Under the pieces are notes generated by a model. That model saw only the letters and a program-made list of their open reading frames with translations, ran no database searches and had not been told where the DNA came from. The translations under genes and the position numbers were made by a program. A stretch of DNA of 64,000 nt. Source: Anaerolineae bacterium. GTDB lineage: Bacteria > Chloroflexota > Anaerolineae > Aggregatilineales > Phototrophicaceae. Positions 46,880-55,275 of the stretch are shown here, one piece after another. The stretch lies in NCBI GenBank assembly GCA_022820665.1, contig JAJEFB010000026.1, forward strand, positions 1-64,000. The letters are read 5' to 3'. How positions within the stretch are numbered: position 1 is the first letter of the stretch; every line of letters starts with the position of its first letter.

Positions 46880-46980
46880 GCTGAGTTTCTATCATATGCT
46901 TCCGCCGCTATTCGTTCAAGAGGGCTGTTTGTCCGGGCAAGCGCATCAAACTGCAAAATCCGCGCCTAGCTCACAAGATT

Positions 46981-47180
46981 TTAACCACCGCGGACACGAA
47001 GGGCACCGAGACTTTTTTCACCGCAAAGACACGAAGCGCATAAAGGTTTTGGGAGGGAGGTATGGGATTGCGGGTTGTGGGTCCGGCGGGGATAGTGCCG
47101 GTTTTTTTGCCACAGAGGCTCAGAGGCACAGAGAGATCTTAACCGCCGAGGGTCGCGTAGACACTGACCGCCGGCACAGA
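46981..47180. repeat. Intergenic low-complexity (GACACGAAG/CACAGAGG) phased repeats ending in a dispersed-repeat copy
   Basis: accaccgcggacacgaagggcaccgagac...caccgcaaagacacgaag...cacagaggctcagaggcacagaga; GGTCGCGTAGACACTGACCGCCGGCACAGA at 47151-47180. Confidence 0.6.
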
Positions 47181-47392
47181 CCATCAGGCGTCCCTACAGA
47201 TTATCAATGCGGTAGATAATTTGTCATTGTCAGCGACATTTCAATTTGAAGCGATTGCCCGGGGCTGTTTAGGGACCGGGTGTTGATATACATAGTCTCG
47301 TTCGTGGGGATTTCGGCGTTTCCATGTTTTGCGGCTGCCTCATATAATGAGTCCATGTTGATAGTTTTCCCTGCTAGCGGGTTCTTGCTCCT

Positions 47393-49621
47393 ATGACAGT
47401 TTTGCGTCTACTGCTCGCGTTGTTGGTTCTCTCGGCCTCGCTGATGCTGGTAGGGGCGCATGGATATGTCGTGCGGGCGATACCCGCCGACCGCAGCACG
47501 CTCGAGCGTCCTCCAACGCGCCTGCAATACTGGTTCAGCGAAGCGCTTGAACCGCGTTTCAGCGAGATCAATCTGCGTGATCAGACGGGTACGATCATCG
47601 CCAGCGGCGGCGTCGATCAAGACAGCTTTTCTTTGCTGTCACTACGCGTGCCGAGTGACTTGCCCGATGGCGCTTATATCGTCGAATTGCGTCCGGCATT
47701 TGCCAGCGACGGTCATGTCATCGCCGAGAGTCGCGTGTTCTTCGTGGGGGAGGAGGTCGGCGGCGTCAGCGGAAGAGTAGCCGACGACCGAGCCATTCCG
47801 TTTGAGGTCTTCTGGAGATACTTGCTTGGCATCGCGAATACGATGTTTTTTGGCGGATCTTTTGCTTACGCCGCCCTTCTGTTGCCCGCGTGGGGCAGCG
47901 CAGGCATTTCGCCAGGCGGTTTGCCGCCCCGTGTCATGGGGCGCCTGCGCAATTGTTTCGTTTTGGCTGTGGCAATCGCCATCAGCACGAATTTGCTCGC
48001 GTTGATTCAGCAGTCGATGGTCTTTTTCAACGCGGACGCGTCTCAAGTCGTGCAGGAGGGTCTTTGGCAGGTGGTGCAGATTGGCTCGCGCTTCGGCGAT
48101 ATCTGGACCCTGCGCATGGTCTTGCTCCTGTTCACCGCCATACTTATTTTCGCTGCCGAATACATGCGCGAAACAGTTCCCCAGATGTCTGTGGGCATCT
48201 GGAAAGGGATGATCTGGCTCGGCGCGCTCTTCATCGGATTGAGCATGATAACCAGCCACGCTGCCGGATCATTGGTACTGCCCTGGGTGGCCATCTTGGT
48301 CAATTGGATTCACGCGCTGGCGGTGGCGGGCTGGGTTGGCGGTCTCTTCGCTTTGGCGCTGGCGCTGCCAGCCGCGCTTGATCCTTACGGAGAGGAGGAA
48401 AGACGTCGGGCGCGCGCTGCGGTGCTGATGCGTTTCTCGCGACTGGCCAAGATCATGGTCATCATTGTGATTGTCACCGGCGCCTACAACGCGCTGAACT
48501 ATTTTGCCAGTCCAGCGGAGATCGCGAGCAGTTACGGCAACGCCCTGGGCAGAAAGCTCCTGCTTGTTGCCTTGCTGCTGCTGGCTGGCGGATGGCAGCA
48601 TCTCACGCTGCGGCCGCATCTTTTGGCGGGAATCCGCGGCAAGCTGGAACGTGCAGGCATTCGACTACGGGGAGAAAGCCGTGAACGTTTGTTGCGGCTG
48701 GAAGTTCTGCTGGCGCTGGCGACTCTGCTCACGGTTTCCTGGCTCAGCGCGACGCCCATTCCCGAACCGCAGTATGCGCCGCCCGACGCGCAAGTTCCGC
48801 AATCGACCGGGACAGCCGGCGACTTCAGGATAAGTGCTGCCGCACTGCCCGGCGGACCCGGCGTCAATACTTACGATCTGCTTGTCAGCCGCGCCGGCGC
48901 GCCGGTCCCCGACCTCAATGTCTATTTGCAGTTGGTCCATCCACAAGGTGGACGACGCAGCCCATGGCATCGGGCGGAAGAGGCGGAAACGGGCCTTTAT
49001 GTGGCTGCGGGAGACGAAATCGACAGAGCGGGCAACTGGTGGGTACTTATTGATGTTGTCGACGACGATGGGCTAAGGCGGGCAGCCTTTTACTGGGAGA
49101 TAAGCGCAGCCGCCGCCGTGCGGCAGTCCCGTGACGCGAATAGCCTGCAGATCATATCACTCGCGACAATCTTGATTACGATCGGCGCGCTGGCTTATCC
49201 GGCGGGAAAGCGCCTTCTCGCGCGGATGAACCTCGGAACCGCTAGCTGTCTGCTTGCGAGCGGCGCAGTTGTCGTGGCGCTCGGCACGATGGGCATCGGC
49301 GCGGCGTTGATCGCCGAACAGCAGCGAGAATATGAGCGCGCGCTCAACCCGCCGCCCCAAGTCGTCAATGCTGTCTTGCCCGATGCCGAGTCGCTGGCGC
49401 GCGGCGCGGCGCTGTACCGGGAACACTGTCTGGTTTGGCAGGGGGAGTCGGCCGATTTCCGCGCCTTGCGCGGGCAGCTAAGCGCGGTCGGCGATGATTT
49501 TCTCTATGGTGTGGTGAGGGAGGGTTGGCGCAAGCTGCCGCGCTGCAGCGGGGACCTGAGCGAAGGGCGGGTTTGGGATATTGTGAACTTTTTCCGCACG
49601 TTTGACGGGCGCGGTGAATAA
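47393..49621 (+). CDS. CopC-CopD fusion copper resistance protein with C-terminal cytochrome c-like domain
   Basis: N-term HGYVVRAIPADRSTLERPPTRLQYWFSEAL (CopC); multi-TM CopD; C-term LARGAALYREHCLVWQGES...GRVWDIVNFFRTF. Confidence 0.88.
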   Translation: MTVLRLLLALLVLSASLMLVGAHGYVVRAIPADRSTLERPPTRLQYWFSEALEPRFSEINLRDQTGTIIASGGVDQDSFSLLSLRVPSDLPDGAYIVELRPAFASDGHVIAESRVFFVGEEVGGVSGRVADDRAIPFEVFWRYLLGIANTMFFGGSFAYAALLLPAWGSAGISPGGLPPRVMGRLRNCFVLAVAIAISTNLLALIQQSMVFFNADASQVVQEGLWQVVQIGSRFGDIWTLRMVLLLFTAILIFAAEYMRETVPQMSVGIWKGMIWLGALFIGLSMITSHAAGSLVLPWVAILVNWIHALAVAGWVGGLFALALALPAALDPYGEEERRRARAAVLMRFSRLAKIMVIIVIVTGAYNALNYFASPAEIASSYGNALGRKLLLVALLLLAGGWQHLTLRPHLLAGIRGKLERAGIRLRGESRERLLRLEVLLALATLLTVSWLSATPIPEPQYAPPDAQVPQSTGTAGDFRISAAALPGGPGVNTYDLLVSRAGAPVPDLNVYLQLVHPQGGRRSPWHRAEEAETGLYVAAGDEIDRAGNWWVLIDVVDDDGLRRAAFYWEISAAAAVRQSRDANSLQIISLATILITIGALAYPAGKRLLARMNLGTASCLLASGAVVVALGTMGIGAALIAEQQREYERALNPPPQVVNAVLPDAESLARGAALYREHCLVWQGESADFRALRGQLSAVGDDFLYGVVREGWRKLPRCSGDLSEGRVWDIVNFFRTFDGRGE

Positions 49622-49651: not shown

Positions 49652-51451
49652 TCATTCTTCTTCATCCAGAAAATCTCGAGCCATGCGCCCCCAATCCCAT
49701 CGAACCTCTTGAGCTTGCAAACGACGTTTACCATCGGGCTGCTCATCTTCATATCGCGCCCAAGCAAACAGAAGCAATTCCAAGCCATTGCGGGCATTCG
49801 CAATACTTTCTTTGAGCTTGCTCTCATCCAAATCACCCAAATCTTGCTGCAGGATTTCTAGCGAATGCTGATATGCAGGGTGGTCGACATTTAACGAAAC
49901 AATCATAGCACCTCCGCGCGATCTTACATCGAAAAACGCTGGTGACGACAAGCTCGATTTTGTCAAAGTATATTTTAGGCCTCGACTTACTGTCTGAGCG
50001 GCGAGATGCTGGGCCTGTTCCTGTGTTGTACCGTGCTCAACAAGTTCTGAAGCGATTTCTTTTTCTCTTTCTTCAGCGCTTTGCTGTTTTTCCTGTTCGT
50101 CGCTTTGACCCAAATAGCCTTCTTTAATGCGGTCTCGAACTACTTCAGTACCTTTTTCTTCCGACTGAGCTGATTCAGAATGCCGCTTATTCTTTGTAAT
50201 TGCTCCCTGTGTACGTAATAACCTTCGGATAGTTGAGATGTTTGTGCGAATATAATTCACAAGTTCCGACAGCGGTAAGCGAGGATCTTCAACTTGGCGC
50301 ATTTCATCCTTTGTTGCCATCCAAGTTTGTCCTAGTTCTCTTAATGTTTCTGGATCCGCTTTTGCCAATTCAGAAAAGTTTCGCGCGGATTGTTTGTTGT
50401 TTGTGACTCCGAAGAGTTCGTCTAATTCTGGTGGGAAACTGATCTCTGCTCCCCACCAACGGTCTCTAAGAGCTTCAGCGTCTTCCGACCAAGAGGTATC
50501 CAGGTCTAGCTCGCGCCCAGCTCGGACGATTGATACTCCCTTGTTATGGTTTGCATGTCTGCCATGTGGTTCTCTGCCGGCGTTACTTCCCTTTCGTGCC
50601 TCTTCTTTTGCGTAAGAAAATCTTACAGTCACGGTATGTTCTTCTTCGCGGAATCTGATTTTGAATTGAGTATTTTGAAAATCTGCCTGTGTGAACATAG
50701 GAATAATATCCCAAGGAGCCGGGCAGGAAGTATTAGAGAGCAAGTACAAAGGGTCGTTTGGACGAGCGTACTTTCCTTCAGTTTTGCGGATAGCATCCAT
50801 ATCAAAGGTTACTAGCCTGATTTTCACTCTTTCTTCCGCCAAAAAATATCGATACATTCGTCCAATCAAAGATTCGGAATTCTTGATAATTGTATTTGCT
50901 GTACGCCAAAGAATGCGATCTAGCTTCGACCAAACAACTAGAGAACCGGATATTCCATAATTGTATCCGACTTCTTGCCACAATTCAGGAATAGGCTTGT
51001 TGGTTGGGATAGGCACATCCTCGAGTTTTCCTGCCTCAATCTCATCTATGTCAATATAAGTATATATGGGGTTTTGATGGCCATCTTGCCAAGACCACAC
51101 CTCGACCCGCCGCGCTTGTGAAATTGAAGAACTTGGCAATCCCAAGCCGAAGCGTCCAATGCCACTATAGTCTTCAAGGTGCGTCCCATTGCCGAATTGC
51201 AAAGCCATCTGCAATACTTCCGCATTCATGCCGGATCCATTGTCCAAGACAGCAATCTGATGAATTCGTGAACGATTGCGCTGACCACTCATGTCTACCC
51301 GCTCTCCACAGAGAAGTTCGACGCTCGTCGCATCAGCTTGAATCGAGTTATCTATCAATTCTGCTATGGCGTAAGCCGCATTCTTGTATCCGTTGTCCCT
51401 AAAAGCTTTCACAGCTAAATGTACTGGCACAATACTGTGGTTCGGCATCAC
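49652..51451 (-). CDS. GHKL (HATPase_c_3/MORC-MutL-type) ATPase, candidate defence protein
   Basis: AIAELIDNSIQADATSVEL; VLDNGSGMN; YSGIGRFGLGLPSSSISQARRVEVWSW; starts (GTG-ATG) directly after helicase stop. Confidence 0.88.
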   Translation of the reverse strand: MMPNHSIVPVHLAVKAFRDNGYKNAAYAIAELIDNSIQADATSVELLCGERVDMSGQRNRSRIHQIAVLDNGSGMNAEVLQMALQFGNGTHLEDYSGIGRFGLGLPSSSISQARRVEVWSWQDGHQNPIYTYIDIDEIEAGKLEDVPIPTNKPIPELWQEVGYNYGISGSLVVWSKLDRILWRTANTIIKNSESLIGRMYRYFLAEERVKIRLVTFDMDAIRKTEGKYARPNDPLYLLSNTSCPAPWDIIPMFTQADFQNTQFKIRFREEEHTVTVRFSYAKEEARKGSNAGREPHGRHANHNKGVSIVRAGRELDLDTSWSEDAEALRDRWWGAEISFPPELDELFGVTNNKQSARNFSELAKADPETLRELGQTWMATKDEMRQVEDPRLPLSELVNYIRTNISTIRRLLRTQGAITKNKRHSESAQSEEKGTEVVRDRIKEGYLGQSDEQEKQQSAEEREKEIASELVEHGTTQEQAQHLAAQTVSRGLKYTLTKSSLSSPAFFDVRSRGGAMIVSLNVDHPAYQHSLEILQQDLGDLDESKLKESIANARNGLELLLFAWARYEDEQPDGKRRLQAQEVRWDWGRMARDFLDEEE

Positions 51452-53068
51452 CTACTCCCAAATATCTTCCCAGTTGTTGAACGCCTCGGAAACACTTCCG
51501 AAACCTGGCAAATTATAATCAACTACAGTTACAATTTCAGCGCTTAAGTTTCCACCGACTCGCAGCCCCCGTATTGCCCGGCCCACCATTTGACTGTATA
51601 AAACAAGGGATTTCGTCGGTCGCGCTATTAGAGCAGCACTTGTCAGAGGAGCGTCAAAACCTGTTGTCAATACGCCAAAGTTGCAAAGTATTCTAACTTC
51701 TGGAGTATTTTGCTTGAATTTCTCAATCATTCGAGAACGCAGTATTCCTGGTGTGTTGGCAGTTACAGACTCTGCGTCATAGCCTTTCATCTGCAAGACG
51801 GCTGCTAACACATCTGCATGTGTAACAGTAGCGGCGAACACCAGAATTCTCTTGTGGCGTTTCGCAAGTTCCTCTAGTTTCGTGATGATTGCTAAGTTTC
51901 TCAATTCGTCCTCGGCAAGACGCTTTAGAATGTTGTCAGGTATGTCAAAACTGTTTTGAACTTTCCTTATGTCGGAATCTGATAATTCAGTACCTCCATC
52001 ATGGTAGAGAGGACTATAATTAACTTGAGCCAAATACTGCTCTGAAACCAGATAATCAATTGGATTGCAATAGTTTTCAATTTGAAGTGTGACCTTGCGA
52101 CGGGCAAAAAACTCCGAAAGCTCTTCGTCAATTTCAATATCTGCCCAAGTTCTCCCAGGAGTTGCTGTTAATCCTAACAGCGCGGGATTCGGGTGCGGCA
52201 TTCTCACAAGTGCATCAAGTATTAGTTGGTACGTTTTCGCTATTGCCGAGTGCGCTTCGTCAATTATTACAAGCGAAGTGCGCCCTGCCAATTCCATAAT
52301 GAATTCTAATTGCTGCTTGGTGGCACTGTACATTTTCGCTAGTCCACCAACCAGCAAACCATCATGCACCTCATCAAGTGCTAATCCGCGGTTACCCCAA
52401 AATCGGTACACTCCAATATCTCGATTGCCCAAGTAGCTCCACGCACTTTCAAATTCGGAAGCCGACTGCTCGCATAATTCTTCCGAATTTGCCAGCCAGA
52501 TCACTAGCTTTGGTTCGTGTTTGCGCAAATGATCCGCGATAATACTCATAGCAACTCGCGTCTTGCCTGCCCCTGTGGGCATATGCAGCATTACACGATT
52601 TGGGTTTTCTTCCAAAGCACAAGTAACAGCCCGGACAGCAGCACGTTGATGAGCAAAGAGAGAATATTGCCCGGGGCTGAAATGTGTTGCCGGTGTCTGT
52701 TCGTGAACCTCACGAACAGGTGCATTCAAACCAAAAAAATTGAACATTGCCTGCTCACGTTCAGACCCTCGTCTAAATTGAGCGAGCTTCAACTCATGGA
52801 ATGTATTCCCATTTTGCGAAAGTCGAAGCACTCTGTGGAGAATTTCGGCGCTTTCTTTAGGCAACAGATCAAAAAGTATTTGCCTCTTTTCGGATGAAAG
52901 TAGTAAGCTTTCCGCTGAGTAGATGTTCAGAATCAATTCACGTATTCGTTGCGGTGTAACTAATTGAGCATCAAGAGTTAAAAGCAACTTCAAAGGCGCT
53001 TGTCCTAGAATAAGCTGAAGCGTTTCATCATCTGCTCGTGAAAGCAAATCTTCGAATCTCAAGCTCAA
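51452..53068 (-). CDS. SF2 DEAH-box helicase (ResIII-like)
   Basis: Walker A MLHMPTGAGKTRVAMS; VIIDEAHSAIAKT; LGLTATPGR; SQMVGRAIRG; start codon TTG (53068 or 53062). Confidence 0.92.
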   Translation of the reverse strand: MSLRFEDLLSRADDETLQLILGQAPLKLLLTLDAQLVTPQRIRELILNIYSAESLLLSSEKRQILFDLLPKESAEILHRVLRLSQNGNTFHELKLAQFRRGSEREQAMFNFFGLNAPVREVHEQTPATHFSPGQYSLFAHQRAAVRAVTCALEENPNRVMLHMPTGAGKTRVAMSIIADHLRKHEPKLVIWLANSEELCEQSASEFESAWSYLGNRDIGVYRFWGNRGLALDEVHDGLLVGGLAKMYSATKQQLEFIMELAGRTSLVIIDEAHSAIAKTYQLILDALVRMPHPNPALLGLTATPGRTWADIEIDEELSEFFARRKVTLQIENYCNPIDYLVSEQYLAQVNYSPLYHDGGTELSDSDIRKVQNSFDIPDNILKRLAEDELRNLAIITKLEELAKRHKRILVFAATVTHADVLAAVLQMKGYDAESVTANTPGILRSRMIEKFKQNTPEVRILCNFGVLTTGFDAPLTSAALIARPTKSLVLYSQMVGRAIRGLRVGGNLSAEIVTVVDYNLPGFGSVSEAFNNWEDIWE

Positions 53069-53079
53069 TCTCCTATGAC

Positions 53080-55275
53080 TTACCGCAGGAAGGCTTCGTT
53101 CAAGCCGCCGTCAACGCTGATTATGTGTCCGGTGGTCTTGCTGAAAGCATCGCTAATCAAAAGATAAGCGACCTCGGCCTCGTCTTCCGGCGTGATGGCG
53201 CATTTGGTCAAGGTGCGCTGGGCATAAAATGTAGCAAGCCGGTCGCGCAAGTCCGGCGTTGATTCGTCCTCGCAATAGTCGATCTCGTATTTCTTCAGCG
53301 AACTGATGACGCGGTCGCGGGGGAACATGTTGCTGCCCTTGACGACCGTCGCCGGCGCCAAGCCGTTCACGCGCACTAATGGCGCCAACTCGATCGCCAT
53401 CTCGCGCACGAGATGATTGGCGGCGGCTTTACTGGTGTCGTATGCCACCGATCCTTTTTTGGAGACGACAGCATTGACGCTGGTGGTCAATACGAGCGCT
53501 GCTGGCAGGTCCTGCGTTTGCCAAATCGGTTCCGCGCAATCCGCGACGATGTATCCACCCAGGACATTGACGTCAAAGGTAAAGCGCCACTTGTCGTCGG
53601 GTATGTGCCCGGTCTTGTCCGGGGCGAAGAAGACGCCAGCTGTGACAATGATGTCGTCTATGCCGCCGTAAGCCAGCAGCACTTGATTCATGAATTCGCG
53701 CACGCTTTCGTGCGTCGTGATATTGACCGGCAGGGCGATCGCCTGCCCGCAGTTGGATATGCCGGAACCAGCTACGCCGATACCGGCGCCGTATTTCTCC
53801 GTCAATTCCCTGGCTGTAGCTTGCGCCGCTTCGAGATTGAGGTCCGCGCAGACCACGTGCGCGCCTTCTTCAGCGACGCGTTTGGCAGCGGCTACGCCGA
53901 TTCCGCTGCCCGCTCCCACGACGAGCACCACTTTGCGCTCCAGGGGGCGTTCGGGCGGCATGCGCTGCAGCTTGGCCTCTTCCAATGCCCAGTACTCGAT
54001 GTCAAAGGCTTCTTGCCAAGGCAGGGCGACGTAGTCGCCGACGGCTTCGGCGCCACGCATGACGGCAATCGCGCAATTGTAGAACTCGGCGGTCACGCGC
54101 GATTCGCTTTTATTCTTGCCGTAGGCGATCATGCCGATACCCGGAATCAATATCACACGCGGATTGGCATCGCGGATGGCCGGGCTGTCCGGATGTTTGC
54201 ATCCCTCGTAGTACGCGGAGTAGTCCTCGCGATACCGCGCGACTCCATCGCTCAGTTTTTGCAACAGCGCCGCGCCGTCCTCCCGTTGCGGGTCCCAATC
54301 CACATAGAGCGGTTTGATCTTGGCCCGCAAGAAATGATCCGGGCAGGATGTGCCCAGGTCGGCGAGGCGCCGCGCTTCCTTGCTGTTGACGAATGTGAGG
54401 ACATCAGCATCGTGTTGAATCGTCGCGATGAAGCGGTCCTTCGTCGAAATCATTCTCCGCAAGTGGGGCAGTATCTGGACGAGAACAGCATCGCGCTCGC
54501 AGGGAGTTAGCGTCTCGTATTTGGCGCCGCCGAAGGTAGTAGCGCCCATGTCGTGGCGACTAAGATGGCGCGCGGCTTTTTCGATCAGCGTCAGCGACAA
54601 CTCGTAACAAGCCTTATCGTCGTCCGCCCAGTTGATAAGCCCGTGCCCGCCGAGGATGATGCCGACAATGCCGGGATTGGCGGCTATTGCCTCTCGCAAT
54701 CGCAAGCCCAAGTCAAAACCGGGGCGTTGCCAATCGACCCAGAGTACTTCGTCTCCATAGATCTCGCGCGTCAGTTGCTCGCCGTTGCTGCAGGCGGCGA
54801 TGGCGATAACCGCGTTGGGATGACTGTGATCAACATGGCGGTACGGTATGAAGGCGTGCAGGGGGGTATCGATGGAACTGGCGCGAGGGTTCAGATTGAA
54901 GACACAATGCGGATACATGGATACCATCTCGTCCTCGATCGGCGTTTTGACGCCCTTCAGCTCCGCTGCATGATAGACTCCCGGGAGTTGCAATAGCTTG
55001 TCCATATAGAGGGAAGCGAAATTGGCGCGTTTTGCGGTCCGGAGATCGCCGCCCGAGCCCTTGACGAACATGACGTCGACTTCGTCGCCGGTCAAGGGGT
55101 CGACTTGCATAATCTTGCTGGAGGTATTGCCGCCGCCGGTGTTGGTTATGCGTTGGTCTTCGCCGAGCAGATTTGAGCGATAGACCAAGCGATCTACGTC
55201 ATCAAGCGAGTCGGCGCGTTTATCGTCCCAAAGGTAATTCACGAATCGGTATTCATCGGGCTTTAAGAGTTGCAT
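53080..55275 (-). CDS. Bifunctional rhamnulose-1-phosphate aldolase / short-chain dehydrogenase
   Basis: Class II aldolase N-terminus (DHSHPNAVIAIA) fused to SDR (VVLVVGAGSGIGVAAAKRVAEEGAHVVCADLN). Confidence 0.92.
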   Translation of the reverse strand: MQLLKPDEYRFVNYLWDDKRADSLDDVDRLVYRSNLLGEDQRITNTGGGNTSSKIMQVDPLTGDEVDVMFVKGSGGDLRTAKRANFASLYMDKLLQLPGVYHAAELKGVKTPIEDEMVSMYPHCVFNLNPRASSIDTPLHAFIPYRHVDHSHPNAVIAIAACSNGEQLTREIYGDEVLWVDWQRPGFDLGLRLREAIAANPGIVGIILGGHGLINWADDDKACYELSLTLIEKAARHLSRHDMGATTFGGAKYETLTPCERDAVLVQILPHLRRMISTKDRFIATIQHDADVLTFVNSKEARRLADLGTSCPDHFLRAKIKPLYVDWDPQREDGAALLQKLSDGVARYREDYSAYYEGCKHPDSPAIRDANPRVILIPGIGMIAYGKNKSESRVTAEFYNCAIAVMRGAEAVGDYVALPWQEAFDIEYWALEEAKLQRMPPERPLERKVVLVVGAGSGIGVAAAKRVAEEGAHVVCADLNLEAAQATARELTEKYGAGIGVAGSGISNCGQAIALPVNITTHESVREFMNQVLLAYGGIDDIIVTAGVFFAPDKTGHIPDDKWRFTFDVNVLGGYIVADCAEPIWQTQDLPAALVLTTSVNAVVSKKGSVAYDTSKAAANHLVREMAIELAPLVRVNGLAPATVVKGSNMFPRDRVISSLKKYEIDYCEDESTPDLRDRLATFYAQRTLTKCAITPEDEAEVAYLLISDAFSKTTGHIISVDGGLNEAFLR

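Follow-up and report, generated by a model that had tools for sequence, protein, structure and literature searches.

An SF2 helicase and a GHKL ATPase between copCD and rhaD

The window analyzed here, a 64,000-nt stretch of an Anaerolineae bacterium contig (JAJEFB010000026.1), carries two adjacent minus-strand genes. The upstream gene (51452..53068) encodes an SF2 helicase of the RadD/XPB type with ResIII and Helicase_C domains, an assignment on which the ORF, Pfam, NCBIfam, a PDB profile and Foldseek agree, and the downstream gene (49652..51451) encodes a MORC/MutL-type GHKL ATPase of 599 aa when counted from GTG, as indicated by the ORF, the HATPase_c_3 domain and Foldseek. The pair is flanked by a gene for a rhaD-like bifunctional aldolase/dehydrogenase on the same strand (53080-55275) and by a convergent CopCD-like gene on the plus strand (47393-49621), whose stop codon lies 30 bp from that of the ATPase. 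The ORF list, the flank positions and the junction sequence thereby bear out a preliminary description of this DNA, in which two ORFs, joined by a TAG stop codon followed by GTG-ATG, were placed between CopCD and a rhamnose gene.

The helicase comprises 538 aa counted from TTG, or 536-538 aa depending on start choice. The likelier start appears to be the TTG at 53062, which is located 7 nt past an AGGAG sequence and approximately 18 nt past the rhaD stop codon. At the junction of the two genes, which reads GAG TAG GTG ATG CCG AAC, an ATPase start codon directly follows the helicase stop codon. The ATG at 51448 is nevertheless the probable start, because aligned relatives begin there; the GTG therefore need not be used, and the obligate co-translation proposed in the preliminary description is too strong. 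As the helicase start is so close behind the rhaD stop, the pair may be translated, probably as an operon extension, from the rhamnose operon message. Promoter and terminator scans around the pair gave results near chance level, no long repeats pointing to a transposon were found around it, and the window contains no tRNA.

The pair has a G+C content of 0.44-0.46, versus about 0.57 around it, and a GC3 of about 0.40 versus 0.70-0.72 for copCD and rhaD, consistent with the AT-rich composition and deviant codon style noted earlier. Each of the five carrier species shows a similar GC3 contrast between pair and flanks. Elsewhere in the window, translations of the intergenic segment that separates copCD from the glutaminyl-tRNA synthetase gene (46900-47390) resemble an 'NHRGHEGHR / TEAQRHREIL' repeat, which is frequent in bacterial non-coding DNA.

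Domain architecture of the two proteins

The RecA1-RecA2 core of the helicase (51569..52666, minus strand) is intact by Pfam and by its invariant columns, retaining Walker A (MPTGAGKT), DEAH, TATPG and QMVGRAIRG motifs, and the ResIII match (E 1.5e-24) together with Helicase_C confirms the original call of an SF2 DEAH helicase. Its closest relative of known structure is RadD, which is recovered by NCBIfam (E 8.8e-38, although at 130 bits this match falls far below the equivalog cut-off of 720), by the profile of PDB entry 6jde (E 1.6e-40) and by Foldseek of the helicase model (E 1.5e-18). The likeness to the RadD repair helicase lies in the fold and sequence of the core, whereas the window protein has in addition an all-helical N-terminal domain (residues 1-112; 52727..53062, minus strand), modeled by AF2 with pLDDT mostly 80-92, and a GHKL gene next door.

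The ATPase begins with a GHKL (Bergerat) domain (PF13589, residues 26-154; 50990..51376, minus strand) that is supported by its invariant columns and by a HATPase_c_3 match (E 1.5e-20), in agreement with the earlier MORC/MutL-type assignment, and that carries intact ELIDN, DNGSGM and GIGRFGLG motifs. The AF2 model and invariant columns indicate a following S5-fold transducer of MORC2/MutL-like fold with a conserved VTNNKQ lysine, K353 (50387..50839, minus strand), and a C-terminal region of long helices and a small beta sheet (49655..50386, minus strand). SMCHD1, MORC2 and MutL are the closest solved folds to the model according to Foldseek. The two hallmarks of the MORC family, GHKL motifs and an S5 domain, are accordingly both found, the S5 domain as a modeled feature. 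The ATPase sequence GVSIVRAGREL fits the S5 motif GhXhhpXXRhl save for an E at a hydrophobic position, and the protein may be one of the paraMORCs. A scan of viral contigs revealed no relative of the ATPase.

The last approximately 125 residues of the ATPase also form the end of a protein in another genome of the same order (G045), with 24% identity over ATPase residues 470-595. That protein, whose gene separates GHKL from PLD in a phosphorothioation locus (L017:8285-10057, minus strand), contains multiple winged helices ahead of this related C-terminal domain, and it may represent a duplicated partner subunit.

The preliminary description proposed that the helicase N-terminus and the ATPase C-terminus could carry an effector. 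The models instead reveal an all-helical domain in the former and helices with a small sheet in the latter, and neither Pfam, AF2 nor Foldseek recognized a nuclease fold or Pfam nuclease in either region, although at the moderate confidence of the two models (mean pLDDT 83 and 82.5) a divergent nuclease might have escaped recognition.

Linkage to SspBCD and phospholipase D genes in relatives

A scan of GTDB genomes yielded 278 loci, the best 80 of which were kept, 76 of them outside the host genus; frequencies derived from this set therefore apply to close relatives. Among the non-genus loci in these best 80 of 278, homologues of both window proteins align over their full length at approximately 43-60% identity, and the helicase lies directly upstream of the GHKL gene in 69 of the 71 loci with room for both. 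The pairing suspected in the preliminary description is therefore conserved, and the genes do not occur mostly alone. Again among non-genus members of the best 80 of 278, SspB, SspC or SspD is encoded in 41 of the 43 loci with full flanks, and a PLD gene is present in 53 of the 68 loci with room downstream. Six co-directional genes in the order SspB-SspC-SspD-helicase-GHKL-PLD, spanning about 9.6 kb in most cases, make up 24 loci of the best 80, and all six genes occur in other arrangements in 16 further loci, with the complete sets spread over several phyla. For two loci (L084 and L089), gene order was derived from rearranged or overlapping BLAST pieces and both calls are less certain.

Plasmid homologues are likewise full-length (about 38-56% identity). 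Their annotated neighbors include genes for DUF4007 (SspB), a large ATPase (SspC), PAPS reductase (SspD), cysteine desulfurase and DndB/DGQHR, with a phospholipase D family gene annotated in most of the copies examined. As some loci without PLD carry other nucleases (GmrSD in L043, HNH in L031), the nuclease of the module looks exchangeable. In an Agrobacterium plasmid locus (L014:9031-18994), the gene after the pair encodes, in place of PLD, a 358-aa protein that matches a PADLOC 'Effector' endonuclease model; the genes that come next end with one for an FtsK/SpoIIIE protein and may be an SspFGH-like set.

From this gene content, we infer that helicase, GHKL ATPase and nuclease constitute a restriction arm of SspBCD phosphorothioation, and the pair in the window looks like the motor half of this apparently unnamed Ssp arm. 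The restriction-like system envisaged earlier is not a generic methylation-based restriction-modification system: the context in relatives consists of SspBCD phosphorothioation and a separate PLD gene. For the scanned proteins, PADLOC 2.0, NCBIfam and Pfam contain no dedicated model and return distant matches to PbeA, MzaB, ZacB and DrmC; the PADLOC comparison called for in the preliminary description gives MzaB as the best library match of the ATPase (E 2e-15) and matches the helicase to PbeA (E 1.5e-26, to the helicase part of PbeA). No paper that we found in the open-access PMC literature connects SspBCD with phospholipase D and a helicase.

Comparison with described systems

SspABCD systems with SspE or SspFGH share their modification arm, SspB, SspC and SspD, with the relatives of the pair (PMC8092258), but the helicase-GHKL-PLD arm of these relatives comprises other genes, and the copy in the window is without modification genes. 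SspE is a DUF262-type nickase; SspF has been described as a Walker A protein and SspH as an FtsK-like one, neither with notable homology to annotated genes (PMC8092258). The possibility that the linked genes are themselves SspFGH was considered and rejected, as SspFGH are other proteins (PMC8092258). The branches listed in a 2025 review are DndFGH/SspFGH, SspE and PbeABCD only (PMC12707154).

In the DndCDEA-PbeABCD system, PbeA is a single fusion protein with PLD, ResIII and helicase parts (PMC6459918). The window helicase resembles PbeA, and the solitary PbeAC that occurs without dnd genes in 320 of 553 cases parallels the orphan pair (PMC6459918); modification-less PbeAC being common, decoupling from modification is not unique to the pair described here. 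The relatives' PLD is a separate gene, absent in the window, and the partner ATPase is of the GHKL type, as opposed to the SMC/AAA-like PbeC. In place of the PLD-ResIII-helicase fusion and PbeC that define PbeABCD, the window thus encodes the helicase part without a PLD domain and a GHKL partner.

The main text of a 2008 report describes operons of MORC or paraMORC proteins with SFII helicases as restriction systems, some with HKD nucleases (PMC2292703). Like these operons, the genes examined here and in relatives combine a GHKL-S5 ATPase with an adjacent SF2 helicase, are sporadic in distribution and have HKD (PLD)-fold partners; that main text differs in describing neither phosphorothioation genes nor such orphan helicase-GHKL pairs (PMC2292703).

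An orphan pair at a single site in the host genus

The helicase is encoded in five of 34 genus genomes (G000, the host genome, and G001, G020, G021 and G031), and the same five carry the full-length ATPase, such that the pair is not a syntenic feature of all relatives. It is located between copCD and rhaD in all five, with CopCD adjoining the ATPase where relatives have PLD. The rhaD gene is found in 32 of the 34 genus members. In 24 other genomes, copCD and rhaD converge on a gap of 5-733 bp that lacks the pair; in G008 and G032, whose rhaD is about 88-90% identical, this junction measures 42 bp.

The five carriers have full-length adjacent homologues with the helicase first, as the SspBCD-linked module does at the family level. 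At the system level, its modification genes and nuclease went undetected: their whole draft genomes gave no match to SspB (PF13182/DUF4007), SspC or DndC and no detectable homologue of the linked PLD gene, and neither a PLD-fold nuclease past the ATPase nor any nuclease in the immediate neighborhood of the pair was found. The same searches detected SspB, SspC and PLD adjoining the pair in G045. The host genome is a 95.7% complete draft, and all five genomes agree on the absent partners. The earlier observation that a nuclease or methyltransferase partner is missing thus holds genome-wide for the linked PLD family, and Ssp/Dnd modification genes were likewise not found.

The five orphans group as a single clade inside the tree, most other members of which are linked, and the nearest relative of this clade is an Anaerolineae locus (L028) with PLD and SspA/SspC; because of this placement, loss of the partner genes in the orphan lineage is the simpler reading, which would make the orphan state derived. 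Derivation of the pair from a phosphorothioate-linked module appears very probable. A second orphan group, separate from the host-genus clade in both gene trees, occurs in Microcoleus, with no SspBCD or PLD nearby (L037:8391-11812 from Microcoleus vaginatus, with full flanks, and L047 and L033, with shorter flanks). The pair is followed in L037 and L047 by a 202-aa gene of an unnamed family.

The copCD-rhaD junction of seven other genus genomes (G005, G015, G017, G019, G022, G023 and G026) contains a small winged-helix gene of 72 to about 190 aa in rhaD orientation (for example, L142 about 2737-2952 and L143 5960-6520). Across 121 genomes, its sole other match is the 590-aa protein between GHKL and PLD in the G045 phosphorothioation locus. 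Within the genus, the winged-helix gene and the orphan pair never occur in one genome. The view that these ORFs are common genomic HTHs is unsupported, as matches occur in just eight of the 121 genomes.

Purifying selection and allele exchange

All five genus copies of both genes are open, free of stops and frameshifts down to 67% identity. Across all pairs with dS < 1.5, omega is 0.08-0.11 for the GHKL gene (0.09-0.11 against the window copy) and 0.09-0.20 for the helicase (0.09-0.16 against the window copy), values similar to or lower than those of the flanks (rhaD 0.07-0.16, copCD 0.18-0.27). Conservation of at least 93% among the mostly linked relatives was found at 136 positions of the GHKL protein and 114 of the helicase, and the five orphans keep 128 and 108 of these, respectively. 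Both genes of the orphan pair are evolving under purifying selection.

The flanks of G020 and G000 are close (rhaD 90% identical in nucleotides, dS 0.41), as are their helicases (87% aa identity), but the G020 ATPase is 68% identical to that of G000 and 89% identical to that of G001 (dS 0.56), a genome whose flanks are distant (dS 1.2-1.3). GHKL and helicase trees conflict inside the genus, in line with this pattern. By these comparisons the copCD-rhaD site recombines and alleles have been exchanged horizontally, and a horizontally acquired two-gene unit is supported.

Interpretation and alternative explanations

RadD-type SF2 proteins, like GHKL proteins of the MORC/MutL type, are ATPases linked to DNA, and closure of the GHKL dimer depends on ATP. 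The full system would consist of SspB, SspC, SspD, a RadD-like SF2 translocase, a MORC/MutL-like GHKL clamp ATPase and a PLD nuclease. In such a system the helicase would translocate on DNA, the GHKL dimer would close around DNA as an ATP-dependent clamp, phosphorothioate marks would distinguish self and non-self, and cutting or nicking would fall to the PLD protein. We propose, as the reading we consider reasonably probable, that the window contains the decoupled motor half of this phosphorothioate-linked restriction module, which in the host genus was separated from the modification genes and nuclease, is kept at the one copCD/rhaD site, and persists as a two-gene cassette most likely still hindering invading DNA. 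The two motors might load on foreign DNA and hold or remodel it without cleavage, or might recruit a nuclease encoded elsewhere. The original proposal of a defense module is in keeping with the defense-type context in relatives, the horizontal two-gene unit and its patchy occurrence, though it did not name the system. The site between two metabolic genes is no defense island, which counts against a defense reading, and since the usual restriction would be impossible with neither nuclease nor modification, a new role in repair or chromosome handling is conceivable.

One such role would be that of a domesticated housekeeping pair, in which both ATPases were recruited to DNA repair or chromosome maintenance, tasks that RadD and MutL/MORC relatives perform, after nuclease loss. 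This idea fits with the repair helicase RadD as the nearest solved structure for the window helicase, with a fixed site and possible rhaD co-expression, and with selection as strong as on the neighboring genes; a distribution limited to five of 34 species, foreign composition kept in all five and horizontal swapping of alleles are unlike housekeeping genes and leave it unlikely. Selection also bears on whether the genes are a decaying remnant or a selfish passenger with no current function. Partner genes have been lost, and in seven other species a junction of this kind contains just small winged-helix ORFs, but an omega of about 0.1, reading frames intact in five species and the retention of nearly all conserved positions largely refute this explanation and render it very improbable. 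Membership in MZA (MzaABCDE) or another described MutL/MORC restriction system is suggested by MzaB being the best library match of the ATPase (NCBIfam E 1.7e-19, in addition to PADLOC). This likeness is confined to the N-terminal GHKL domain, where it scores 70 bits and the cut-off is 850, with no similarity outside it; no other MZA genes were seen, and Ssp partner genes rather than those of MZA lie beside the relatives examined, so that membership is extremely unlikely.

A further alternative retains defense but supplies cleavage in trans, through a chromosomal nuclease, for instance GmrSD, an HNH enzyme or one of the host's general nucleases. The variation of the nuclease in linked relatives, mostly PLD with occasional GmrSD or HNH, makes the motor pair seem untied to any one; the immediate neighborhood encodes none in five genomes, and discrimination of self from non-self without a mark would require another signal, which makes this a lesser possibility. 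Returning to the decoupled motor half, a role against invaders that continues today, independent of any unknown partner acting in trans, is quite conceivable, if short of probable. The boldest version, a nuclease-free and modification-free defense in which a translocase resembling RadD and a clamp resembling MORC stop foreign DNA on their own, as a bacterial counterpart of MORC silencing by DNA compaction that evolved at least twice (in the Chloroflexota genus and in Microcoleus) from an unnamed phosphorothioation restriction arm, is speculative and rather doubtful.

Implications

Among 2,678 sspBCD occurrences, 196 have sspFGH, 199 have sspE and 36 more have both (PMC8092258), and many SspBCD loci are thus without a known restriction partner. 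If the interpretation above is correct, the conserved SspBCD-helicase-GHKL-PLD six-gene operon is a candidate further arm for such loci. The orphan pair would then represent a natural deletion experiment, in which the motors have been retained by selection after loss of the mark and the nuclease. It would be suited to testing MORC-like clamp action on foreign DNA in the absence of cutting, and would bear on the origin of the eukaryotic MORC silencers.
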